Source: Porphyromonadaceae bacterium
GTDB lineage: Bacteria; Bacteroidota; Bacteroidia; Bacteroidales; Porphyromonadaceae
Length of the DNA: 37,448 nt
Reading direction: 5' to 3'
Assembly: GCA_030528445.1 (NCBI GenBank)
Contig: JAUMYV010000013.1
Coordinates: 1-37,448, forward strand
Part shown: piece by piece, positions 712 through 20,355 of the stretch
Numbering within the stretch: the stretch's first letter is position 1
How the letters are laid out: every line of letters starts with the position of its first letter
The notes under the pieces: model-generated
Told to the model about the DNA's origin: nothing
The model's input: the letters and a program-made list of their open reading frames with translations, nothing else
Database searches by the model: none
Translations under genes and position numbers: made by a program

Positions 712-3700
712 ATGCTACGTTTAAATCATTTTACTGCTAGCCTTCTGCTCCTACTTACGCTCGCCACAGCCTTGTGGAGCTATGCCCAAGAAAGTAGAGA
801 AGGTGAAGCATATCGAACCTTTATTCCCGAGGGGCTGCCGCATGGCGCACCCGAATGGATGACCCAGCTACTCACGCCCGAGGGGGTAGATTACAACCAA
901 GTGAGAGATCAGTGGCTTGCGTTTAGGCGAGCCAATCCCCAGTATCAGCGCAAGACCCCTGCGACCAAACCTCTTATTCGCTTCATGCAGCGTTGGGAGG
1001 AGCACTACAGAGCCTATGCCGATGCCAACGGAATCATTCGCCTGCCCCTAGGGCGCGACTATAAGGCCGAGGTTAGTAGCATCAATCGCCTTGCCTCTAG
1101 GGAGCGCAGTGGGCTGAGGGCCACTGCGCTCGATGGCAACAAGTGGCAGATTCTGGCTCCGCTGATTACTTACAGCCACAGTACGAAAAAAGTAACGCCT
1201 TGGCAGGCCAACATCCATCGCCTCGGTGTCTCGCGTAGCTCACCGAGTACACTCTATGCAGGCTCGGAGACGGGTATGATATTCCGTACCGACGACAAGG
1301 GCGAGCACTGGCATCCGTGTAGCCCCAATCACTACTTTGGGGGCGAAGTCAATAGTGTAGAGGTATCCTATCAGACGCCAGAGAAGGTTGTTGTCGGGGC
1401 TGGAGGGTATGTTTGGCTGACGACAGATGGCGGCGAGAATTGGCGAGACATTACACCAGAGCAGCAACGCAATGAGCTGATTCGTGATGTGGTTTTCCAT
1501 CCCGAGAACGACAACTTCATTCTCGTTGGTACCGCTAGGGGGTTGTATCGTACCGAAGACGCGGGGCTTACCTGGACGAAGGTTATACAGGCGCAGTGCT
1601 ACGACATCAAGTTCCAGTACGGAGCCAAGCGAATCTATGCCCTTGCAGGGCGCCCAGGGGCGGTAGCCTTCTACACCAGCGTAGACGGTGGTAAAACGTT
1701 CTCGCCCAGAGAGCTGGGCGCGCCAATCCTGGCAGGGCGCATCGGTCTCTCTTACTCCGAGAAGGGGCGCGACTACGTCTATGTTTGGGCGACCGAGGGG
1801 CGCTATCTCAATCACCCAGAGGAGTTTTTTATTGGTAAACCTCTGCTCTTCAAGAGTACGGACTCGGGCGCATCCTTCGCCATGAATCGAGAGGTTGCCG
1901 ACAAGCTGGAGCATGGTGACAAAAACGGAGGGCAGGGCTACTATGACCTAACTTGTCTTGCCTCTCCACACAACCCCGAATGGGTTTTCTTTGGTCTGAT
2001 GCATACCTATTTTTCCCCCGATGGCGGCACAACCGTCCAGAACAAAGGTGGATACTATGGTCAATTTGAGCTGCACTCGGATCAGCAGGATATGCATATC
2101 GTAGGCAACGATACTTGGCTCTCGACCGATGGTGGGATTATTTATTCCTCTGACTTCTTCCAGAAGCACGCCGAGCCTCGCATCCGTGGTATTTATGCCT
2201 GCGAATTTTGGGGCTTCGACCAAGGGTGGAATGAGGACGTTATGGTCGGCGGACGCTTCCACAATGGCAATATGGCGCAGATGGATAGCTACGAGGGCAT
2301 CAGCATCAGCATGGGCGGTAGCGAACAAGCTACGGGGCACCTGCTGCTGAGCAACCCGCGCAAGGTTCTCTTCTCCGACACCGAAAACGTTATCATCCCC
2401 GATGATTGGAAGAAAGATTTTGTCCCCTTTGGCAATATCGGCAAATACCCCTACGAAAGCTCCCAATTTGGTATCGGTCTGACCTTCGACCCTCGCTATG
2501 CCAAGTGTTTCTATAATGTGCAGGATGGTGGGAACGAACTGCGTTACCTCTGGAAGACCATTGACGACGGCGAGAGCTACACGCTGCTATACACCTTCCA
2601 GGCGCCAATCTCCTCTGTTGGTATCTCTAGGGTCAATCCCGATCGAATGGTTGTCTGCACCAGTCTCGGTCTCTACCAGTCGGTCGATGGCGGGAAAACA
2701 TTTGCCAAGGTAACCACCGCTCCCGAGGAGCTAAACAATATCCCCAATAGCTTCGTGGCCATGCATCCGCGCAACGAGCAGGAGTTCTGGATCTCTTGCT
2801 ACAACAATCAGAGTGTTTGGCGAACGAAGGACGCTGGGCTGACGTGGAAGGAAATTGGTCGCGAGGCCAAGTTCGATCATGACCTCTTCAGGAATGATTT
2901 CTTCTTCAGATACATCTTCCTCACGGGGAACGAGAAGAATGCCGCCTACGCAATCGTCGGAGCTATTCGCCCCTACAACGCAATCAATATGAGTCTGCGC
3001 AGTCGGATTGCCTACCGAGACGACACAACCAAGGGTTGGGTCGATCTCTCCGATGGTCTGCCCTATGGCTTGTCGATCAATAAGCTACTGCCTTTCTACA
3101 AAAAGGGAGTGCTCCGCCTAGCCTCTAGCAATGGGATTTGGGAGCGTCCGCTGATTGATCCGAACTTCAGACCTGTGGCTCAACCCATCATCCTCAATAG
3201 TGGTGCGGGCGAGTTTGCCACGACCAACGAGGTGGAGCTCGACAGTTACTCCATCGTCAACCAAGACGATGCCCAGTGGAGCTGGAGCTTTAGCCCCGCT
3301 CCGCTACACGTGAGTGACCCGAACGCACGCAACCCTAAGATCCGCATCGCGCCCAATACGACTTACGATGTGACCCTCACTATTACTACCCCTCAAGGTA
3401 GCGACACCAAGACCGTGAAGAGTATGATTGTAGGTAAGGCCACTGTACCGCCCTATACTGACCCAACCGATGCGCAGGAAGTAGAGATGATGGCCAAAGA
3501 CATCGTGCTTCGTCGCCACCTAATCCGTCAAGGTGAGCAGATTGCGCTCTCTTTCGGTGGTCTGACCCTACCTGTGGTGCTACACGTCTACGACATTCAG
3601 GGGCGTGAGGTAATGAGAAGTGAGTTGTCTCCTAGAGAAGCAACCCACCTCGATACCTCTAGGCTCCCCGTTGGTGCGTACATTTACACAGCGGAGAGCA

Positions 3701-3738
3701 CAGAAATCAAGAAGAGCGGACGTTTGCTCATTCATTAG
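712..3738 (+). CDS. Secreted Vps10/BNR-repeat beta-propeller protein with T9SS C-terminal sorting domain
   Basis: A 1008-residue protein with a clear signal peptide (hydrophobic core LLLLLTLATAL, probable cleavage after SYA near residue 25). Asp-box (BNR) repeats of the type xTxDxGxxW appear at about residues 191 (RTDDKGEHW), 235 (TTDGGENW), 280 (RTEDAGLTW), 382 (STDSGASF), 656 (SVDGGKTF) and 704 (RTKDAGLTW). This is the pattern of sortilin/Vps10-like or xyloglucanase-like beta-propellers. A PKD-like beta-sandwich follows at about 830-910. The last roughly 70 residues (LHVYDIQGREVMRS, LPVGAYIY, ending GRLLIH) form a type A Por secretion sorting domain, so the protein should cross the outer membrane by the type IX system and be anchored or released at the surface. 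The ligand or substrate cannot be read from the sequence; no sialidase or glycosidase catalytic set is evident. The start at 712 puts the signal peptide at the N-terminus. Confidence 0.88.
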   Translation: MLRLNHFTASLLLLLTLATALWSYAQESREGEAYRTFIPEGLPHGAPEWMTQLLTPEGVDYNQVRDQWLAFRRANPQYQRKTPATKPLIRFMQRWEEHYRAYADANGIIRLPLGRDYKAEVSSINRLASRERSGLRATALDGNKWQILAPLITYSHSTKKVTPWQANIHRLGVSRSSPSTLYAGSETGMIFRTDDKGEHWHPCSPNHYFGGEVNSVEVSYQTPEKVVVGAGGYVWLTTDGGENWRDITPEQQRNELIRDVVFHPENDNFILVGTARGLYRTEDAGLTWTKVIQAQCYDIKFQYGAKRIYALAGRPGAVAFYTSVDGGKTFSPRELGAPILAGRIGLSYSEKGRDYVYVWATEGRYLNHPEEFFIGKPLLFKSTDSGASFAMNREVADKLEHGDKNGGQGYYDLTCLASPHNPEWVFFGLMHTYFSPDGGTTVQNKGGYYGQFELHSDQQDMHIVGNDTWLSTDGGIIYSSDFFQKHAEPRIRGIYACEFWGFDQGWNEDVMVGGRFHNGNMAQMDSYEGISISMGGSEQATGHLLLSNPRKVLFSDTENVIIPDDWKKDFVPFGNIGKYPYESSQFGIGLTFDPRYAKCFYNVQDGGNELRYLWKTIDDGESYTLLYTFQAPISSVGISRVNPDRMVVCTSLGLYQSVDGGKTFAKVTTAPEELNNIPNSFVAMHPRNEQEFWISCYNNQSVWRTKDAGLTWKEIGREAKFDHDLFRNDFFFRYIFLTGNEKNAAYAIVGAIRPYNAINMSLRSRIAYRDDTTKGWVDLSDGLPYGLSINKLLPFYKKGVLRLASSNGIWERPLIDPNFRPVAQPIILNSGAGEFATTNEVELDSYSIVNQDDAQWSWSFSPAPLHVSDPNARNPKIRIAPNTTYDVTLTITTPQGSDTKTVKSMIVGKATVPPYTDPTDAQEVEMMAKDIVLRRHLIRQGEQIALSFGGLTLPVVLHVYDIQGREVMRSELSPREATHLDTSRLPVGAYIYTAESTEIKKSGRLLIH

Positions 3739-3760
3739 ACCCTGTAAACATTGCTAAATC

Positions 3761-3806
3761 AAAAAGGGGGCTGTGTCAAAATTGGCTTTTGGCACAGCCC
3801 CTTTTA
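3761..3806. terminator. Bidirectional terminator hairpin between convergent genes
   Basis: AAAAAGGGGGCTGTGTCA at 3761-3778 pairs with TGGCACAGCCCCTTTT at 3790-3805 (one bulged G, one wobble pair). It lies just after the T9SS gene and ends in a T-run. The A-run on the other side gives a T-run for the minus strand, so it could also end the TonB-receptor transcript. Confidence 0.7.
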
Positions 3807-3965
3807 GGTGTTTCAGGATGCGCAAGATGCAAGGCACTAAGACTGAGGCTAAGGGAGCATACTAGAGTATGTGACCGAAGCCGAATGTCGCAAGTAACAC
3901 AGCAGTTTGCGTATTATGACACACCGTCCTTTTTAGGTGTCTGAGAATGCGCATTCTGACACACC
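3807..3965. repeat. Tandem long-hairpin repeat (MITE- or REP-like)
   Basis: Two consecutive hairpins have the same ends. The first, 3807-3925, begins GGTGTTTCAGGATGCGCAA and ends with the approximate reverse complement (TTGCGTATTATGACACACC). It holds an inner CATACT/AGTATG hairpin. The second, 3936-3965, begins GGTGTCTGAGAATGC and ends GCATTCTGACACACC. It looks like the first with its middle deleted. Both are preceded by CCTTTT(T)AGGTG and followed by CACACCG. No coding capacity. I associate similar repeats with Porphyromonas genomes, but cannot check this here. Confidence 0.6.
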
Positions 3966-11419: not shown

Positions 11420-11469
11420 AAAACGCCACACGGCATATAGCGCAGTCGCTATATGCCGTGTGGCGTTTT
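11420..11469 (+). terminator. Strong terminator of secDF
   Basis: A perfect 23-base inverted repeat (11420-11442 and 11447-11469) with a 4-base CAGT loop, ending in five T residues. It lies 16 bases after the secDF stop. Its A-rich 5' side could also give weak termination on the minus strand. Confidence 0.95.
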
Positions 11470-11887: not shown

Positions 11888-13729
11888 TTATTTTACCGTC
11901 CTGTCGAAATATTTCCTCACCACGGGAATTTCTAGTAGAGAAGCACGCAAATCCTCGAAGTCTCTGAATAGTCTATCCACGATATCGCAGCAGAATTGCC
12001 CCGCTAGCTCGGAGGATTGACGCAAGGCTTGCTTAGCTCCCCAAACGTGCGTTATCAAGTCTTGCTGATGTAGCTGATCAAGCTCTAGGAGCGTTTTGAC
12101 AGGCGTTCCTGTATTCTCCGCACAGATGCCGAGTAGGCGCTGTTCGGCGAAGACCATTTGGCTCACCTCGTCGTTGGCTCGCTCGAGGTTGTCTACCATA
12201 AACTCGATTGCATGGGAGGTATATGTATCCTTGAATTTAGGATCAGAGATGTAGAGCAGGGCGGTATTGAATGGCTCTGCCGACCACTTCCAGTTGTCTG
12301 AGAAGCGGTACCCCTTGGCTGTCTTGAGATTCTCTATGCTTGGATAGATCTCCGATAGATACTCTTTGTGTACACAAACGACCTGATCAGACCGAGGATT
12401 GATAGCACGATTTAGATTCTTCCAAACAATCATATCCGTATCAAGCATCACGCAGGGCGTCTGCATATCTCGTAGTGCATAGAGCTTAGCTCCAGCCCAG
12501 AAGATAGAGAAGTCTACTCTATCTTGGATGCCATCCAAGACATCAACATTAATGCCACCATCCCAGATGAAATTCATGTTCTGCTCTTCGTAGATTCGCT
12601 TACCATAGCTGTCGGTATAGAGCCGAATCGGACCATTGTACTTGCGCCACTGCAAGGCCGACATGATGGTAGTGAGAAGATCGACGTCATGGATATACGG
12701 TTCCTGCCCTCTAGCTCTTGCTGGGGCTGTATGGGTGGTATGAAAAGCTGTCAATCCATATTGCTCTGGGGCAAGCCATGTAGTCTCTAAATCAATATCC
12801 GTCCGCTCAATGAGAGCTAGTCCATATCCGCCCTCTAGAGTTGCGGCACCATTGTCCATGGAGGAGCTGATACCCCACGAGGAAATATAGCTCTGTGGAG
12901 CGCTCGTGTATGCCGAGCTCGCAAGAGCTTCTGCCTCTCGCCTCTGACTATTTAGCTTGATTGCTGATAAGAGTCGCATGAGCTTGGAGTGATCGGATCG
13001 GACAATCACATGGCAACGCCCACGTGCCTCACTACTCTCAACGAAGATGTAGGCCTCGCCCTTACGGTGTGCCGTCACACCTCCTCGGGCGTTGACTGTA
13101 GCCACAGTGGGATTGCTAGAGCTCCATACCAGAGCCTCTGGAACAACTGGCTCAATAGGGTAGAGGGGATAGTGCCCTTGGACGAAGATCTCAATCTGCT
13201 CTGTATTGAGGAGTAGGTCGGCTTTGAGACTTGGGCGCTGAGGCTCCTCAAGGGCAATCGTCTCATCCAGCAGATTAAACAATTTAGACAGCCCGATGGG
13301 CATGTGGTTCTGCGAGGCTTGGAGCCTTACCTTGAGGTGATGATTAGTGGTGATGGTCTGTTGCTCTTCGCTATCGGTCTGTGTACCCCTAGATGCAAAA
13401 GAACACGTCAGATGTTTATCATCGAAGCTATCAACCAGCGCATTGAACTCTATGTCTAGTCTATCTACGGAGAAGTGAGGGAGGGGCACTAGTGCCATTA
13501 GCGGCATTGATAGCTCCAGCATCTGGCTACCATTCTGATACCTAAAGGCAATCATTACGGCCTCCTGCTTCCCGGCCTCGTTGGTACGCAGAGTAACGGA
13601 GTTCAAGTAACGCTTAGTGACCCGAGCGGCCTCAACCTGAGCCTGCACACAGGCTCTAACAGGCTCTCCGAGCATTTGGCTAAATGGGAGTGTGGCCAAT
13701 GCAGACTGCGGTGTTTCTTGATTTTTCAT
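11888..13729 (-). CDS. DUF2589-type core fused to Big2 domain and glycosyltransferase-like domain
   Basis: A 613-residue protein in three parts. Residues 14-155 are the shared core: LPFSQMLGEPVRACVQAQ (14-31), MPLMALVPLPHFSVDRLDIEF (about 75-95), then SQNHMPIGLSKLF (139-151). Residues about 173-245 form a bacterial Ig-like Big2 domain (VWSSSNPTVATVNARGGVTA). Residues about 330-600 resemble a GT-A glycosyltransferase: IRLYTDSYGKRIYEE, FWAGAKLYALRDMQTPCVMLDTDMIVW with a DTD triad near 430-432, and EPFNTALLYIS. This part is close to the DUF6734 type as I remember it. There is no signal peptide or membrane segment. The start is only 2 bases after the previous stop, with a strong AGGAGG inside the last codons of that gene, so translation is probably coupled. 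It is the last gene of the cluster. Activity and acceptor are unknown; the domain calls are by eye. Confidence 0.8.
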   Translation of the reverse strand: MKNQETPQSALATLPFSQMLGEPVRACVQAQVEAARVTKRYLNSVTLRTNEAGKQEAVMIAFRYQNGSQMLELSMPLMALVPLPHFSVDRLDIEFNALVDSFDDKHLTCSFASRGTQTDSEEQQTITTNHHLKVRLQASQNHMPIGLSKLFNLLDETIALEEPQRPSLKADLLLNTEQIEIFVQGHYPLYPIEPVVPEALVWSSSNPTVATVNARGGVTAHRKGEAYIFVESSEARGRCHVIVRSDHSKLMRLLSAIKLNSQRREAEALASSAYTSAPQSYISSWGISSSMDNGAATLEGGYGLALIERTDIDLETTWLAPEQYGLTAFHTTHTAPARARGQEPYIHDVDLLTTIMSALQWRKYNGPIRLYTDSYGKRIYEEQNMNFIWDGGINVDVLDGIQDRVDFSIFWAGAKLYALRDMQTPCVMLDTDMIVWKNLNRAINPRSDQVVCVHKEYLSEIYPSIENLKTAKGYRFSDNWKWSAEPFNTALLYISDPKFKDTYTSHAIEFMVDNLERANDEVSQMVFAEQRLLGICAENTGTPVKTLLELDQLHQQDLITHVWGAKQALRQSSELAGQFCCDIVDRLFRDFEDLRASLLEIPVVRKYFDRTVK

Positions 13730-13731
13730 AC

Positions 13732-14865
13732 CTACTGCCTCCTAATAATCTCAATACCCTCGGGGAGTACGTATTCATATTTCTTGCGATTCTCCTCAAA
13801 CCACCTTGAGACTACAAGCCGTCTGATGCGACTATGCTCTATGTTTAGATGCGTGAGCCTATTGCAGTACGATATATCCACGACATCGTGCACGCACTCT
13901 TTGATGACCAGCTTCGTCAGATGAACAGCCGAGGTGAGCAGTACTTGGGGAATGAAGCCCGCCCCCCACTTACAGAGTACTAGAGTATAGATCTGTTCGA
14001 GCCATCCGAAGTCCATGTTCGCTCTATGCTGTCCCTCTGCTAGTTTCTCTCCATTGCCCCATAGCTCTAGATAACGCAGATCGGCAAGACGACTCATAGA
14101 GAAAGCCTGCACTGCGGATAGATTGAGCCGGGTACATCTGAAGGCATACAGACTATGAAAGGCTCCAAAATCATCGATGCTGAAGAATGGGAACTGATCG
14201 TGCGGTATGTTGAGCGCTTTGATTTTGTCAATCGCGGCACGCTCGATATGATTCTTCTCCGGGAGTTTGATCGAGGCCTCTGTCTCGGACTTGCTACCAA
14301 ACGAGTAGTCTGGGGCTATCTTCTCGGGGACAGATTTGACGCAGCCACGGGCGATTGCTCTAGCGATCTCGGGATCCCTAAGCTGCATGTAAATGCTCTC
14401 TGGTACCACTGATTGCTCCATGAAGCCGAGCACTTTGCTTAGTCCCGAGGGGACGTGATCTTGGGTGGCACGTACAGCCACGTCAATCGTATTCTCCAGT
14501 TGAGTCGTCGTGGTATCGCCAGAGGTGGTAGCATAGGTCGCAGAAATCTTGCTCTCGCTATTGGAGAGGCTAGCATTTACTCCAGTCACCTTAGCTCTGA
14601 AGGAGATCTCTAGCGTATCTATCGAGAAGTAAGGCACGGGAACCAATGTCAGCAATGGGATGCGTAGGTATGCCTTGGTGCCATTGTTGATGAATGAGAA
14701 AGATACCATGACGGCCTCTTTGCCATTCGCCTCTAGGCCTACATCTCGGATATAGTGCCAAGTACTCATCGATGCCTGCTCTTGGGCTGCGATGCATGCC
14801 TTGAGTGGACCACCGATTAGATGATGAAAGGGTAGTCCTTTCATCTGTTCGTTTACACTACTCAT
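13732..14865 (-). CDS. DUF2589-type core with LRR-like C-terminal domain
   Basis: A 377-residue cytoplasmic-looking protein. The core spans about 10-155: GLPFHHLIGGPLKACIAAQ (10-28), IPLLTLVPVPYFSIDTLEISF (69-89), then a short Ser/Thr-rich insert and ATQDHVPSGLSKVLGFME (133-150). From about 225 to 360 it switches to irregular leucine-rich segments (ADLRYLELWGNG, HLTKLVIKECVHDVVDISY, RLTHLNIEHSRIRRLVVS) that look like a small divergent LRR domain with bulky aromatic positions. In this family the other members have a beta-sandwich or enzyme module at this place, so this is probably an interaction module. It lies 55 bases after the zinc-ribbon gene and 2 bases before the glycosyltransferase fusion. 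Confidence 0.78.
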   Translation of the reverse strand: MSSVNEQMKGLPFHHLIGGPLKACIAAQEQASMSTWHYIRDVGLEANGKEAVMVSFSFINNGTKAYLRIPLLTLVPVPYFSIDTLEISFRAKVTGVNASLSNSESKISATYATTSGDTTTTQLENTIDVAVRATQDHVPSGLSKVLGFMEQSVVPESIYMQLRDPEIARAIARGCVKSVPEKIAPDYSFGSKSETEASIKLPEKNHIERAAIDKIKALNIPHDQFPFFSIDDFGAFHSLYAFRCTRLNLSAVQAFSMSRLADLRYLELWGNGEKLAEGQHRANMDFGWLEQIYTLVLCKWGAGFIPQVLLTSAVHLTKLVIKECVHDVVDISYCNRLTHLNIEHSRIRRLVVSRWFEENRKKYEYVLPEGIEIIRRQ

Positions 14866-14920
14866 GCCTTTTCTTTTTATTCGTAGTACGGCCGACTACG
14901 ATGTTGATGAATAGATTGAA

Positions 14921-15139
14921 CTATCGACGGAAGTTGCTCGCCTCCTGTACGCGCTGCTTGGCGCGCTCTACATCGCCTAGTATCTCTAGGGCACGCTTGG
15001 ACTCTTGTTTATTGATCTCAAGTTTGAGGCGACAATGCTTGCACTCTATATATGGAGCCGAGATAAGTTCGGCGATTGTAGTCTCGATGAAGCGGTTGCA
15101 TTTGGGGCAGTTGAGCCCGGGTCTTCTTTGTTCGTTCAT
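14921..15139 (-). CDS. Small zinc-ribbon protein
   Basis: A 72-residue protein when started at 15139. A frame-consistent ATG at 15154 would add five residues, but GAGAGAA lies just upstream of 15139 and suits it as a ribosome binding site. CPKC near residue 11 and CKHC near residue 34 form a four-cysteine zinc knuckle pair; the last third (ESKRALEILGDVERAKQRVQEA) is a predicted helix. Such ribbons usually serve in protein or nucleic-acid contact. It lies inside the DUF2589-type cluster on the same strand, with gaps of 24 and 55 bases to its neighbours, so it probably works with those proteins. No further function can be read. Confidence 0.75.
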   Translation of the reverse strand: MNEQRRPGLNCPKCNRFIETTIAELISAPYIECKHCRLKLEINKQESKRALEILGDVERAKQRVQEASNFRR

Positions 15140-15163
15140 ACTGTTCTCTCGCATTTAAATAGG

Positions 15164-16123
15164 TTAGTATTCTTCCGATAGTCTTGTATTATTCCCCATA
15201 CCTCTAAATATATCGGCAAATCCTGCGGGGAGAGGGGATTGCTTTAGCTTGATTCTGATTGTGAAGTTGCTCTGCTCGGTCTGCTGATTCTGGCTAGTCA
15301 TCGTTACCTTGGCACTAGAGTCATCTTGCCGCGCGAGCTCACTCACTTTGGTATGGAGCAGAAATCTCCAAGCGATATGCTTGTGCGCATAGTCGTAGCG
15401 TCTGCCGTCTAATGGAAACTCAATGCGCACCTCTTTGGTCGAAGAGCTATTGCGCTGATAGGTGTTGCCTTGGTGCCAAAGAGATCCATCGCCATAGAGG
15501 CTGATGAGCAGACGATTGTTCCACTCAAACTCTTTGATTTTGTCATCGCCTAGTTTTTCCTCCCATAGCGTAATGTAGGGTCTACCTAGAGAGAGGAGGA
15601 CGCATCGCTTATTTTGAAGCGATTTGGTAGGGTCACTCTTGTAGTAGGATTTATTGCCACTCCTGTCTATAATCTGGAAGGTGAGTTTATTGGGATTCAC
15701 CAAAGACTGATATACGCTTATCTGGAGGGCATAAACTCGCTTGTTTTGCTTTTTGTCGTAGTACTCTGTTAGCGCTCGAGACTTATCAATAGAGTCATTG
15801 GTCGTGGCGAGTCTAGGCGCCTGAGTCTGGGTGTCTGATTTTTTGGTTTGGGTGTTTAGTTCCAGGCGACATGAGCAGGAGAACTCGGCCTCCTCTATGC
15901 GTAATAGGGATAGTGGCACTAGAGTGATCACAGGGATCTGTAGGCGTAGTCTACGCCCCTGATCATCGGTGTAGCCAAAAGAGATTGGGGGCATATCGCG
16001 TAGCTGCCCCAATATACGGAGGTACTCCTCTAGACCCATCTGTTCGGCTTTGAGCGTAGAGACATGCGCCTCCTTAATCAGATCGGCTAGCCCTATATCC
16101 ATCCTAGGTAATGTATTACTCAT
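15164..16123 (-). CDS. Diverged DUF2589-type protein
   Basis: A 319-residue protein. The N-terminal GGPLxAC helix signature is lost, but the central strand pair is clear (LQIPVITLVPLSLLRIEEAEFSC at about 61-83), and the C-terminus ends with IRIKLKQSPLPAGFADIFRGM (about 289-310), the counterpart of QDxxPxGxxK in the other members. Between them sits an insert of about 190 residues that is rich in beta strands and aromatic residues (QISVYQSLVNPNKLTFQIID, RVLLSLGRPYITLWEE-like, WNNRLLISLYGDGSLWHQG), unlike the inserts of its paralogs. No signal peptide or membrane segment. It is 44 bases from the gene before it and 24 from the zinc-ribbon start. Function unknown. Confidence 0.72.
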   Translation of the reverse strand: MSNTLPRMDIGLADLIKEAHVSTLKAEQMGLEEYLRILGQLRDMPPISFGYTDDQGRRLRLQIPVITLVPLSLLRIEEAEFSCSCRLELNTQTKKSDTQTQAPRLATTNDSIDKSRALTEYYDKKQNKRVYALQISVYQSLVNPNKLTFQIIDRSGNKSYYKSDPTKSLQNKRCVLLSLGRPYITLWEEKLGDDKIKEFEWNNRLLISLYGDGSLWHQGNTYQRNSSSTKEVRIEFPLDGRRYDYAHKHIAWRFLLHTKVSELARQDDSSAKVTMTSQNQQTEQSNFTIRIKLKQSPLPAGFADIFRGMGNNTRLSEEY

Positions 16124-16167
16124 TATTATACTTATGTATCTGCGTTTCCCCTGATGGGGGCAGAGGA

Positions 16168-16935
16168 TTAGACATTGGTAGTGGAGAGCTGCGGAGGTAC
16201 TACTTTTAGGGTGATGGATTGGATTGCCTCTGGTGGATAATCCTTGAGTCGCTCGGCGTCAATCTCAATGCGAAGCGAACGCTCCGTACGGGAGGAGAAT
16301 AGCTCTGCGCTTTGCTCCTCTTGGATGATTTTGCGGATTTCCTCGCTCACTTCGTCGTCTAGCACCCGCCGAGTTTCGGCTAGAAGATCCGCTCCGCCTG
16401 CTAGGGCAAATAGCCCCTCAATATCGCTGTGCCGTAAGAGAGCCTCCTCGCCCACAGCGAGTACCTGATCGGCGATAGGCTCTACCTCGAATTCATGCTG
16501 CTCATTGTATAGCTTGTCCACATGTGCTTTGAGGCGCGTGAGCATCCTATGGGCGATGTAGTCAATGAGCCTACGATTGTCTCCTAAGTCGTCGATATAA
16601 GAAAAACCATTGGAGGTATAGGGTACACCAGATGCTTGGGTTTGATGGACTAATTTGCGAATCACTAGTTTGGCGAGCTGCTCGGAGATATTGCCAAGTA
16701 GCCGGTCGCTCTCGTTTGCGTTGAGTACCTTGACCTCCGTGATGTCCTCTCCGTCTTGGATGGCATAGCGTAGGTTTAGGGTCAACTCGCCTACCGTGGC
16801 CGCTGGGGAGATGGATATCCCCCCAGTGATCTGTTGGTGAGACTTGGCTAGCTCACGAGCGTAGCTAGCGGCTTCGTGCTGAGCTTGTATTACATCTCGT
16901 AGCACGGATGATATTACTTGCTTGAGGTTTGTCAT
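16168..16935 (-). CDS. Hypothetical protein of the DUF2589-type cluster
   Basis: A 255-residue protein with no family I recognise. The N-terminus (SSVLRDVIQAQHEAASYARELAKSH) resembles the AQxxAAxTTxxFI helix of its neighbours. The C-terminus (RSLRIEIDAERLKDYPPEAIQSITLKVVP) could be a counterpart of their strand region, so it may be a distant member. The middle (about 80-215) is mostly helical and charged, with DDLGDNRRLIDYIAHRMLTRLKAHVDKLY and a run of acidic helix (LDDEVSEEIRKIIQEEQ). No signal peptide, membrane segment or cysteine motif. The gaps to the flanking genes are 33 and 44 bases. It may be a helical adaptor for the cluster; that is inference from position. Confidence 0.7.
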   Translation of the reverse strand: MTNLKQVISSVLRDVIQAQHEAASYARELAKSHQQITGGISISPAATVGELTLNLRYAIQDGEDITEVKVLNANESDRLLGNISEQLAKLVIRKLVHQTQASGVPYTSNGFSYIDDLGDNRRLIDYIAHRMLTRLKAHVDKLYNEQHEFEVEPIADQVLAVGEEALLRHSDIEGLFALAGGADLLAETRRVLDDEVSEEIRKIIQEEQSAELFSSRTERSLRIEIDAERLKDYPPEAIQSITLKVVPPQLSTTNV

Positions 16936-16968
16936 AAGATATATTACGGTAATAGTCCGAGAGACGAG

Positions 16969-18099
16969 CTACTCGGCCACTGCAATGCTTTGTTCTTTCT
17001 TCCCTGCCTTGATCGTGTAGACTGCAGCCTTCGAGAATGTTAGGGTTACTCCCGTCTCCGTCTTCTCTAGGGTTACGCCCTCGTTTGGGGTACACTCAAT
17101 CTCCGAAGGAGCCAAGATGCCGTCTTCGTTGAGGTATCTGACGAAGAGTTTTCGTCCACTAGAGTTAGGGTCGGGTGTAATCTGTAGTTCTCCTGCTGGG
17201 TCGAAGGTGATGATAGCATTATTGAGCGTCTCAATAATTTTGGCTAAACCACCTGGCATATCTGCAGGTCCTGCTTGGATCTCGAAGTCGACGGTCGTCT
17301 CAATGCTGTACTTGGACTCTTGGGTTACCTTAGAGTCTTTCTTGTTGGAGTACTCGGCCTTTTTCTCCGAGTCCTTGGCATCCTTCGACTTCTTATAATC
17401 TTTGTAGAAGTCAATAGCTTTGCCGCTATACTTCATTACCTCACGCCACCAAGCGGGATCATCGTCTTTGTCCTCTTTCTTGCTCTCGTCGGACTTGGCA
17501 GACTTGTCGTCCTTCTCTGCTTGCCCCGACTTGTCGTCCTTCTTGGTGCCATCTCCAGAGCTGTCCGCTTTGCTCGAGGCTTGGTCTCCTTCCTTGGATT
17601 TACCGTCCGCCTTCGCCTGCGCAATAGCCTCATCCGTTTTCGTATTCTTGTCCTTGTCGGAGGCTTCCTCTTTCTTCTCGTCCTTTTTGTCCTTGTCCTT
17701 ATTCAGATCAAGTGAGATATCGGGTGCTGTACCCCAAGAGGACGAGGCCTTGATAGAGGCCTTGAAGCTAATCGTGACAGCATTGATCTGCAAGAAGTTG
17801 ATTGGCACAAGCGTGATGAGTGGCACCATGATCTTCTGCCGCCTCCCATCCTTGACGAACTCGAAGCCAACCGAGGCTGCGACCTGATTATTCTCCTTGT
17901 CCGAGAAGATCCCCATCTCTCTAAGGGCTGCGATCGTCGTCTGGTGGCTCTCGTTTTGCGCAGCCACACACGCCCTTAGCGGTTCGCTAATTAAGTGTGT
18001 GAAAGGGATGTCTGTTACTCCACCTAATGTAGCCTTACGCAGGGCTGCATAGTCGATCGAGCTAGTAGAGTTCTGCGATTGATTTGTTTCTTCAGCCAT
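16969..18099 (-). CDS. DUF2589-type protein with long charged linker
   Basis: A 376-residue protein. The core reads IPFTHLISEPLRACVAAQ (31-48), VPLITLVPINFLQINAVTISFKA (92-114), then NKKDSKVTQESKYSIE (252-267) and PADMPGGLAKIIETLNNA (278-295). Between the halves lies an extreme low-complexity stretch at about 131-250, made mainly of K, D, E and S, interrupted by PAWWREVMKYSGKAIDFYKDYKK. The last part (about 300-376) is a small beta-sandwich-like domain ending YTIKAGKKEQSIAVAE. No signal peptide. The linker should be disordered and could act as a flexible spacer or polyampholyte tether. The gap to the previous gene is 28 bases. Function unknown. Confidence 0.82.
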   Translation of the reverse strand: MAEETNQSQNSTSSIDYAALRKATLGGVTDIPFTHLISEPLRACVAAQNESHQTTIAALREMGIFSDKENNQVAASVGFEFVKDGRRQKIMVPLITLVPINFLQINAVTISFKASIKASSSWGTAPDISLDLNKDKDKKDEKKEEASDKDKNTKTDEAIAQAKADGKSKEGDQASSKADSSGDGTKKDDKSGQAEKDDKSAKSDESKKEDKDDDPAWWREVMKYSGKAIDFYKDYKKSKDAKDSEKKAEYSNKKDSKVTQESKYSIETTVDFEIQAGPADMPGGLAKIIETLNNAIITFDPAGELQITPDPNSSGRKLFVRYLNEDGILAPSEIECTPNEGVTLEKTETGVTLTFSKAAVYTIKAGKKEQSIAVAE

Positions 18100-18127
18100 A
18101 GTCGTATCTCCTATTCTTTAGTTAGGG

Positions 18128-19009
18128 TTATGGAGTTACTACAATCAAGGCTTGGCAGTCGCCACCTTTGATGTAGTATTCCCCCTCTTCGCCGAAAGTC
18201 GCGATTACGTTCTCACCATTGCTTGCGACCTTGAGGGGATTTTGGTCAAATCCCCCAGTGGAACCGTTACCACCCTCTTGCCCTTGCCACTTATCCTCTG
18301 CATCCGTAGCCTTACGCCACTGGACTTCCTTGGGTGACCAAACACCTGCATTGTTGCGATAAGAAATGATGACCGACTGATTGACTGGCACCATATGTTC
18401 GCTCACCGTCAGCTCTCCCTTGGCATTGACTGTGTCTACCGCACTATTGAGGATCTCTAGTACCCTAGCCATACCAGCAGGCATACTATCTTGCCCAGCA
18501 TGGACATGCACGTCCATCGTGTACTCGACACTGTATTTGGACTCTTGCGTTGCCTTAGAATCCTTTTTGCTCGAGAAGTTGGCATGCATCTCTACCGAGG
18601 CCTTGGCAAATACTCCTTTGTAGCCAGCTTCGATTTTAGCCCCTACATCAACCGCCCTAGACTGCTTTACTTCGGTTGAGCTGGATGCAGATGCCGAAAT
18701 CTGAGCTTTGAAGTTGATCTCAATCTCATTGATCGCAATATAAGGTATCGGGACAATGGTTAGTAGCGGGATGATAAGCATCATCTTGCGGCCTCCCTGT
18801 ATATACTCGAAGCTGACAGTTATAGCCTTGGTATTCCCCTCTTTGTCCGTCTGCAAACCTACCTGCTTGATAAACTCCCACGTCGTTTGGGCAGCTTGAG
18901 CTTGAGCATTGATGCAGGCAGTAAGTGGTCCTCCGATGATCGAACCAAAGGGGATAGCCTGCAAGGCAGAGGTCGCAACCTGAGAGGGGGTTGTGTCTAT
19001 ATTAGCCAT
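18128..19009 (-). CDS. DUF2589-type protein, near-minimal member
   Basis: A 293-residue protein and the cleanest example of the family. The helix AIPFGSIIGGPLTACINAQ (18-36) leads into AQTTWEFIKQVG. Strands IPLLTIVPIPYIAINEIEINFKA follow at 80-102, then a short insert (about 105-145, alternating small and charged residues), SSKKDSKATQESKYSVEYT (146-164) and AGQDSMPAGMARVLEILN (171-188). The C-terminal domain (about 198-293) is beta-rich with a Gly-rich loop and ends in GEYYIKGGDCQALIVV. The N- and C-terminal halves are close to those of the gene upstream (19114-20169), so these two are probably a recent duplication. No signal peptide or membrane segment; probably cytoplasmic. Function unknown; the family name is from memory of the motif. 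Confidence 0.85.
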   Translation of the reverse strand: MANIDTTPSQVATSALQAIPFGSIIGGPLTACINAQAQAAQTTWEFIKQVGLQTDKEGNTKAITVSFEYIQGGRKMMLIIPLLTIVPIPYIAINEIEINFKAQISASASSSTEVKQSRAVDVGAKIEAGYKGVFAKASVEMHANFSSKKDSKATQESKYSVEYTMDVHVHAGQDSMPAGMARVLEILNSAVDTVNAKGELTVSEHMVPVNQSVIISYRNNAGVWSPKEVQWRKATDAEDKWQGQEGGNGSTGGFDQNPLKVASNGENVIATFGEEGEYYIKGGDCQALIVVTP

Positions 19010-19113
19010 AGCGTTTGTGTCTAAAAGTTAAACCATCACGAATATCTCTGTATTCGACCTATAGACTTCGTTGGAGGGATCCCAATATCCGAAATCCCTC
19101 TCTTGATGATGTC
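19010..19113 (-). promoter_or_regulatory. Intercistronic hairpins between the first two cluster genes
   Basis: This is the longest gap inside the cluster (104 bases). It contains two inverted repeats: CGAATA/TATTCG at 19039-19056 with a 6-base loop, and GAGGGAT/ATCCCTC at 19074-19100 with a 13-base loop. No T-run follows either on the minus strand. They may be partial terminators or RNA-processing or stability signals that set the first gene apart from the rest. Confidence 0.4.
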
Positions 19114-20169
19114 CTAGCTCTGTGTTTTGGCAACAACAACCTTGATAGTTTCCGTTAGCGTTCCTTCAGCATTGGATAGCAGATATTCTCCTTCTTCTAA
19201 TTCAGCAGAAGCTCTATCTTTATTACGGACAGTGAGCAAATCGCTATCCTTTTCAGATGTACTATCTCCCACCTTCTTCTTGAGCCAGAAGTCCTCCTTA
19301 CGTGTGGAGAGTAGCCCCTCTGGAGTCTTGTAGACCACCTCAAGGGTACCTTTCTTCCCTTGAGCAATCAGCAGGATGTTGTTATTGATGAGGAACTCGC
19401 CTTCTGGGTTGCAGACGTCCATAGCGTTACCGATAAGCTCTAAGACCTTAGCCATACCTGCTGGCATGCTGTCCTGTGAGGCGTGTACAGCCACATCCAT
19501 CGTGTACTCTACGCTATACTTAGACTCACGCGTGCCGACCGAGTCTTTCTTGCTCGAGATAGAGGCCTGCATCGAGTTGCGGGAGTAATCGCTCGAGTAG
19601 CTAGACTCGTTGTGGCCGCTTCTGTTTTTATTCCACCAGCGACCAGATCGCCCATAGCTTCGACTACTTTGGGTGTCCAAGCTACTATTGTAGTTAGAGC
19701 TAGTTCTATCATCCGCCTCTGTGATGGCGTCTTGATCCATGGCACTGGCTTGAGCCTTGATGTTAGCCTTGAAGTTGATATCAATTGTATTGATTGCAAT
19801 GTAAGGAATAGGCACGATGCTTAGCATGGGGACGTTGAGGCGTACCAAACGACCTGCTTGGATGAACTGAAAGCATACATAGATAGCCTTTTTCTCCAAC
19901 ACAGGATCCATAATAGTTTGACCTTTGGAGTCTTTAATTTCATTGCCATATCTATCCAAGCGAGGTGCTTTGACGATTTCTCCCTTGGGGTCTCTTACTG
20001 GCACATCCTCTAGCCCAACCTCACGAATGAAGTCTACTGTGGTCTGAGCGGCCAAGCGCTGAGCCTTGACGCACGCCTGCAGAGGGCCTCCGATGATGTT
20101 CTCGAATGGGATTGCTCTAAGAGCACTAGTGGCTACCGATGAAGGTGCCGTACTGATAACTTTTTCCAT
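19114..20169 (-). CDS. DUF2589-type protein, first gene of the cluster
   Basis: A 351-residue protein. Core: IPFENIIGGPLQACVKAQ (20-37), AQTTVDFIREVG, VPMLSIVPIPYIAINTIDINFKA (113-135), SSKKDSVGTRESKYSVEYT (205-223), SQDSMPAGMAKVLELIG (231-247), then a beta-rich C-terminal domain ending in a GEYLLSNAEG turn. Two regions are expanded relative to its nearest paralog. A charged loop (about 55-92, VRDPKGEIVKAPRLDRYGN) splits the helix from the strands. A Ser/Asn/Arg-rich insert (about 150-200) contains RSGRWWNKNRSG. The WW pair inside an otherwise polar insert recurs in the third gene. No signal peptide. It is the promoter-proximal gene, so probably the most abundant product. Function unknown. 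Confidence 0.83.
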   Translation of the reverse strand: MEKVISTAPSSVATSALRAIPFENIIGGPLQACVKAQRLAAQTTVDFIREVGLEDVPVRDPKGEIVKAPRLDRYGNEIKDSKGQTIMDPVLEKKAIYVCFQFIQAGRLVRLNVPMLSIVPIPYIAINTIDINFKANIKAQASAMDQDAITEADDRTSSNYNSSLDTQSSRSYGRSGRWWNKNRSGHNESSYSSDYSRNSMQASISSKKDSVGTRESKYSVEYTMDVAVHASQDSMPAGMAKVLELIGNAMDVCNPEGEFLINNNILLIAQGKKGTLEVVYKTPEGLLSTRKEDFWLKKKVGDSTSEKDSDLLTVRNKDRASAELEEGEYLLSNAEGTLTETIKVVVAKTQS

Positions 20170-20323: not shown

Positions 20324-20355
20324 CAAAGGTATAGATTAAGATACATAAAACGAAA
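20324..20355 (-). promoter_or_regulatory. Probable promoter of the DUF2589-type cluster
   Basis: On the minus strand TTTC (20355-20352) and TACCTTTG (20331-20324) are separated by 20 bases, close to the Bacteroidota consensus TTTG-N20-TAnnTTTG. The leader to the start at 20169 would be about 150 bases. No other promoter of this quality was noticed inside the cluster, which supports one transcript. Confidence 0.6.

Follow-up and report, generated by a model that had tools for sequence, protein, structure and literature searches.

An eight-gene cluster on the minus strand (positions 11888-20169) of a 37,448-nucleotide stretch of contig JAUMYV010000013.1 (assembly GCA_030528445.1, Porphyromonadaceae bacterium, order Bacteroidales; hereafter the window) is a D-B-D'-zinc ribbon operon in expanded form, belonging to a Bacteroidota type related to the inter-domain D-B-H operon. 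D denotes proteins of the Pfam family DUF2589 (PF11655), B and H are companion families, and D' is a degenerate D encoded between B and the zinc-ribbon protein. Handles beginning with L designate loci and those beginning with G genomes; the window genome is G000. We tentatively propose that the products could form a cytoplasmic hetero-oligomer with one membrane-inserting subunit, which would serve envelope-directed payloads.

Organization of the cluster and protein families

The eight open reading frames (ORFs) are separated by gaps of 2-104 bases, in agreement with an earlier note on this DNA, which described a one-strand cluster with mostly short gaps. In the order of transcription, the features are as follows.

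20324-20355, minus strand: TTTC-N20-TACCTTTG, a promoter-like site preceding the first gene
19114-20169, minus strand: D1, DUF2589 with a C-terminal extension, 351 amino acids (aa); PF11655 79.8 bits; member of the first-position-D clade
18128-19009, minus strand: D2, DUF2589 with an immunoglobulin (Ig)-like C-terminal domain, 293 aa; PF11655 95.0 bits
18569-18646, minus strand: D2 candidate amphipathic beta-hairpin (about residues 122-147), from the sequence pattern
18131-18418, minus strand: D2 Ig-like domain (about residues 198-293), from the structure model and fold comparison
16969-18099, minus strand: D3, DUF2589, 376 aa; PF11655 62.0 bits; a Lys/Asp-rich stretch of 155 residues replaces the hairpin region
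16168-16935, minus strand: B, companion family, 255 aa; matches a profile built from the B proteins of other genomes (E 2.6e-9)
15164-16123, minus strand: D4, degenerate DUF2589 in the D' position, 319 aa; PF11655 32.7 bits, partial; with B and zinc-ribbon neighbors, like its counterparts in relatives
14921-15154, minus strand: zinc-ribbon protein, 77 aa; similar zinc ribbons occur in D operons of other genomes
13732-14865, minus strand: D5, DUF2589 with a leucine-rich repeat (LRR)-like C-terminal half (by eye), 377 aa; PF11655 77.2 bits
11888-13729, minus strand: D6, 613 aa, with DUF2589 (13262-13687, 54.1 bits), Big_2 (13046-13132, 25.4 bits) and DUF6734 (12077-12679, 50.2 bits, cut-off 27)
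11423-11466, strand not assigned: terminator-like hairpin (20-pair stem) separating the operon from the convergent secDF

The TTTC-N20-TACCTTTG consensus, which we take to be a Bacteroidota-type promoter, matched nowhere else in the window, where 0.11 matches were expected, in line with the single good promoter reported previously. The G+C content of the cluster (0.495) was close to that of the remainder of the window (0.500).

Six of the eight proteins scored above the PF11655 cut-off (23 bits), and the DUF2589 core proposed in the earlier note thus passed the check by profile similarity. These six genes were the sole DUF2589 matches in the host genome assembly (93% complete), while B and the zinc-ribbon protein matched no Pfam family above cut-off. 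In a comparison of their profiles, B and D aligned weakly in two places, the PIPxLRIxExxIDF motif and the helix at the N-terminus (hhalign probability 54, E 1.3e-4), which lends moderate support to the suggestion that the 255-aa protein is a distant relative of D. A third iteration of the B profile, with 154 hits into which D had probably been drawn, was discarded. Pfam searches with two B representatives and one H representative gave no family above cut-off, no convincing relative of the B and H families was found in the PDB, and a PDB sequence search with D gave no match. The model of B contained a helical domain between the N-terminal helix and strand and the C-terminal strands (AlphaFold2 mean predicted local distance difference test [pLDDT] 80.5, predicted template modeling score [pTM] 0.61). 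That of D2 consisted of a long N-terminal helix, antiparallel strands and the Ig-like C-terminal domain; the core was poorly modeled, and the Ig-like domain dominated the list of fold matches. The highest Kyte-Doolittle 19-residue average across the eight proteins was 1.99, and this crude test agrees with the earlier statement that signal peptides and membrane segments are missing.

As the same note had stated, the paralogs differ in their C-terminal modules. These are Ig-like in D2, LRR-like in D5, and Big_2 with DUF6734 in D6. No Pfam family above cut-off was found for the C-terminal half of D5. DUF6734 is presumably glycosyltransferase-like, and a DTD motif near residue 430 of D6 points the same way.

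The three-gene D-B-H unit in bacteria and archaea

A scan of genome contigs yielded 118 relatives, and 80 loci, some of them near-duplicates, were kept. In six-frame profile searches, 76 of the 80 had D, B and H in this sequence and on the same strand; at the remaining four the contig ended 176-826 bases past D. Since the scan patterns favor canonical D and these same loci served to refine the profiles of B and H, the count describes the canonical D-B-H type and not all DUF2589. To judge by the titles of their records, the bacterial hosts included Bacteroidota, several proteobacterial groups, Acidobacteria, Planctomycetota, Anaerolineae, Bacillota and Kribbia, and the archaeal ones Bathyarchaeota, Methanotrichaceae, Methanosarcinaceae, Methanocellales and Methanoperedens. 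The window retains the adjacency of D and B on one strand (D3 followed by B); H (about 190 aa, helical) had no match after B among the called window genes. In place of the one repeated core described in the earlier note, the basic unit is D-B-H or D-B-D'-zinc ribbon and not a set of many DUF2589 copies.

Variants in Bacteroidota and the form found in the window

The type II operon, D-B-D'-zinc ribbon, was present at nine loci in nine genomes, namely the window, L039 (G015), L041, L201, L204, L207, L230 (with one extra gene before D'), L231 and L236. In G503, two loci (L199 and L200) had B-D-zinc ribbon but lacked the first D; L059 had D-B-D', its zinc ribbon not being found. Type III, D-D-B', was represented by L051, L192, L197, L205, L229 and L238, and, with a single D, by L208; B' was assigned by position and by eye. 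Type IV, D-D-zinc ribbon-D, occurred in L043, L052, L191, L195, L228 (zinc ribbon by eye), L234, L235 and L237, with a shuffled form in L232. LytTR genes were located upstream in L204 (E 1.9e-15) and L231 (E 3.7e-17) and, by eye, in L207, L059 and L195.

Several copies and the zinc ribbon recur in other genomes, a point that the earlier note had proposed to survey, but the D-glycosyltransferase fusion was confined, among the loci examined, to the window genome and its congener G015 and is not general. Neither a lack of profile similarity between the members nor rare co-occurrence of the genes, which that note had named as telling against its reading, was found.

In a maximum-likelihood tree of 63 D cores, D1, D2, D3, D5 and D6 formed one 10-row clade (support 99/94) with the first D of L204, L207, L231, L236 and L059, and the D' proteins of the latter five loci formed a separate clade (support 96/86). 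The first D and D' of L041, L201 and L230 were placed elsewhere in the tree. D4 had a long branch and its place is unsure; the order D, B, D4, zinc ribbon in the window matches type II. Because five window D proteins share the first-position clade, we read the cluster as a type II operon in which copying of the first D has given five. In the core group of loci, paralog clades that track operon position fit a hetero-oligomer, judging by the tree.

The slot after the zinc ribbon is occupied in the window by D5 (LRR-like) and D6 (Ig and glycosyltransferase-like). A muramidase gene occupies it directly in L207, and in L204 follows one gene of 139 aa. With D fusions standing in the window where these relatives have a muramidase, D takes the form of an N-terminal module on the slot occupants. 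The window illustrates the diversification of such operons: a single subunit was copied to five and fused to new modules.

Selection and taxonomic spread

The ratio of nonsynonymous to synonymous substitution rates, calculated against G015, a second genome of the same genus, was 0.07-0.15 for all eight genes, and all are under purifying selection. G015 carries the identical eight genes in identical order; its flank on the secDF side is common to the window, and the opposite one is different. Within the family, two of the 38 genomes sampled had DUF2589; the figures were 18 of 393 for the order, 16 of 396 for the class and 19 of 296 for the phylum, these samples being overlapping and each including the window genome. 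DUF2589 was missing from 24 of 26 genomes of the window genus. The archaeal D proteins were 49-58% identical to a Bacteroides D query. In four genomes of genus g50 of family f18 (L026-L029), frames of 97-115 aa matched DUF2589 solely over positions 1 to 41-51; these are possibly truncated or remnant D genes.

A phage or plasmid origin was considered and rejected. A tblastn search with D2 found one record of a phage collection and one distant plasmid record. The former, MT839761.1, is a 4-kb unannotated "Bacteriophage sp." record from human faecal samples, in which positions 3203-3895 encode a D protein with 59% identity to D2; the record may be of bacterial origin and wrongly labelled. None of the window proteins matched a PHROG family at E 0.001, the nearest match (E 0.0014) lying over the Big_2 domain, and a scan of viral contigs gave two loci. 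As far as tested, these are not core phage genes.

A candidate membrane-inserting beta-hairpin

The earlier note passed over both a candidate membrane-inserting hairpin and the peptidoglycan-active enzymes encoded nearby. Between FNAKI-like and VRAxQDE-like strands, D proteins contain a Ser/Thr-rich stretch (28% Ser and Thr across 107 proteins), which is 54 residues long in 67 of the 107; 35 of these remain after thinning at 80% identity. The thinned set showed a 24-column alternating run (P 0.0009, column shuffling) and had an aromatic residue at the tip in 34 of the 35 canonical proteins, Trp in 29. With each protein taken singly, 60% of the 107 reached P < 0.05. When 22 D proteins were read side by side, a WGPFS-like aromatic or looser tip was recognized in the first-position D of L204, L207, L231, L236, L059, L041, L230, L234 and L191, and was not seen in the D' of L204, L207 and L231.

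Among the window copies, D2 alone has a canonical-looking hairpin (P 0.02). The canonical pattern was not seen in D1 (loop P 0.57), D3, D5 and D6, and D4 reached P 0.04 solely across a 201-residue insertion. To judge from sequence, the amphipathic beta-hairpin pattern of beta-pore-forming proteins is present at the family level and in D2. Such a pattern is characteristic of a membrane-inserting hairpin, but a soluble sheet could show the same.

Neighboring enzymes as candidate payloads

Neighbors were counted, excluding duplicate or near-identical loci, in a near set of 112 genes out of 204 chosen and a far set of 112 sampled genes more than 3 kb away. PG_binding_1 was found in 4 of the 112 near genes, and patatin and integrase families in two each. 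Proteins with PG_binding_1 and Muramidase domains were encoded in L207 (E 6.9e-65) and L204 (E 1.3e-60). Other neighbors supported by Pfam were a Peptidase_C1 protein in L105, GH25 and GT9 (E 2.5e-18) in L234, CHAP in L048 and S8 in L042. PG_binding_1-type proteins adjoin D-B-H in L078, L121, L125 and L135, and, as weaker evidence, this set contains an M15-like peptidase motif, SxHxxGxAxD. A gene for a lytic-transglycosylase (SLT)-like protein follows in six of the seven D-(D)-B' loci, L051 having none; an alignment of four members showed conserved ESLG and YNAG motifs. Inspection by eye, unsupported by Pfam, pointed to a YkuD-like motif in L230 and to HEQDH in both L064 and L085. A strongly hydrophobic N-terminus was missing in 14 of the 16 peptidoglycan-active or -like neighbors checked.

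Two other kinds of neighbors were observed. Integrase-like genes directly adjoin D operons in L049 (10707-11903) and L059 (3625-4956), a hint of mobility. Large ORFs near D-B-H in L088 (4770-10682, 1971 aa) and L054 (2622-6818, 1398 aa) appeared Tc-type-like by eye.

Proposed mechanism and alternative explanations

The families, gene order, conservation, paralog clades of the core group and varied neighboring enzymes are solid observations, from which the mechanism is inferred. In the mechanism that we tentatively favor, D, B, D' and the zinc-ribbon protein would assemble in the cytoplasm through a common N-terminal helix-plus-strand segment. The subunit with the aromatic-tipped amphipathic hairpin, here D2, would insert into the membrane when triggered. 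The assembly would then let an envelope-directed payload reach its target, the payload in relatives being a muramidase, an M15-like peptidase or a lytic-transglycosylase-like protein, and its equivalents in the window the D-fused LRR-like and Ig-glycosyltransferase modules. As a result the cell could be permeabilized or lysed; alternatively, the payload could be delivered to the envelope or to another cell. Counted in favor of this mechanism were the constant D-B-H order, the recurrence of type II in nine genomes, the peptidoglycan-active or -like neighbors, most of which lack a strongly hydrophobic N-terminus, the hairpin pattern, the clade of five window D proteins with first-position D, and the patchy spread in the family and order.

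Several observations weigh against it. The alternation typical of the hairpin may likewise occur in soluble beta-sheets, 40% of the 107 D proteins do not reach P < 0.05 when taken singly, and the first-position D of L192 and L201 had no aromatic tip among the 22 compared. The D2 model is weak (pLDDT 66, pTM 0.48), with pLDDT below 50 in the hairpin. The SLT assignment is based on motifs, Pfam giving E 0.14 for L192, 0.014 for L238 and no SLT match for L229. PG_binding_1 was found in at most one far gene; the difference has the expected direction but does not by itself reach significance (P 0.37). At many D-B-H loci no enzyme is encoded close by on the same strand, a Pfam scan of the eight cluster genes found no peptidoglycan hydrolase, and archaea carry the operon. 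Finally, the N-terminus is hydrophobic in the L234 GH25 protein and in the equivalent protein of L235, which for this reason need no membrane device.

The main rival to a membrane-inserting hetero-oligomer, possible although on balance doubtful, is a pure carrier: the D/B core would be an N-terminal assembly or recruitment domain through which diverse enzymes or binding modules are packed into a particle inside the cell or into an injection device, with no pore. It would account for the fusion of window D proteins to Ig-like, LRR-like and Ig-glycosyltransferase modules and for the variety of hydrolases near D elsewhere (S8, patatin, muramidase, C1, CHAP and GH25), but many D-B-H operons have no visible cargo. 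Contractile-sheath matches were found in 15 of 39 D-positive and 5 of 40 D-negative genomes (P 0.010), the control genomes being unmatched for lineage, and this association leaves room for delivery outside the cell. However, no sheath match (PF04984) was present in the window genome or in G015, and in the 15 sheath-positive genomes the sheath was on another contig than D or more than 0.7 million bases away.

An intracellular conflict (abortive-infection) module, in which a sensed threat would activate D-B and an adjoining protease, lipase or lysin would kill the host cell, is rather unlikely. The patchy distribution, the identity between archaeal and Bacteroides D, the integrase genes near D and matches of PADLOC phospholipase-effector models to 2 of the 112 near genes are in line with it. 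Yet near genes rarely match defense models, and D, B and H had no convincing PADLOC match: the best for the window was E 0.041, and one H reached E 6.5e-4 while the other representatives had none. Still more improbable is a housekeeping scaffold that organizes peptidoglycan or glycan enzymes at the cell envelope; peptidoglycan-active enzymes and glycosyltransferases (GT9 in L234, D-fused DUF6734 in the window) are nearby, but DUF2589 is missing from most genomes of the genus, and archaea have the operon.

Significance and comparison with known systems

Pfam lists no function for DUF2589, to which six cluster proteins belong by score. The literature searched, with most subscription papers and all bioRxiv preprints outside its scope, mentioned the family in a single paper and gave none either, as the earlier note had stated for this core, and searches for the identifiers PF11655 and DUF6734/PF20508 found no paper. 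The three-gene order in all 76 loci with enough sequence, in bacteria and archaea, set beside this near-silent literature, marks a real gap in the knowledge of prokaryotic cells. The hairpin and the lysin neighbors allow the function to be addressed directly, by asking whether D-B causes membrane leakage and whether the muramidase depends on it to reach the wall.

Among known systems, Trypco2 (PF19631) is likewise a short helix-plus-strand domain located beside a peptidase, by eye, but hhalign with one Trypco2 sequence revealed no relation to D or B, and the window proteins had no match to it. Extracellular contractile injection systems resemble the D loci in the diverse enzymes that may serve as payload, and the sheath is commoner in D-positive genomes; unlike them, the window genome has no sheath match, and sheath genes are distant from D. 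As in holin-endolysin cassettes, several relatives have the gene of a putative membrane-active protein close to that of a cytoplasmic peptidoglycan hydrolase. In contrast to such cassettes, D clusters have several soluble subunits, no transmembrane helix was found, and archaea have them; in the window, neither a transmembrane holin, given the hydropathy maximum above, nor a hydrolase gene within the cluster was found. D differs from bacterial gasdermins in having constant partners, B and H, and no PDB sequence match. It shares with gasdermins and other beta-hairpin pore formers a Ser/Thr-rich amphipathic hairpin with an aromatic tip, and proteases are encoded near some D loci. D-B-H and its variants might represent, though we hold this to be uncertain and somewhat unlikely, a new class, common to both domains, of cytoplasmic machines that form pores or breach the envelope, built of paralogous subunits with one inserting beta-hairpin and having a payload slot filled by muramidases, peptidases, lytic-transglycosylase-like proteins or a D-fused glycosyltransferase.

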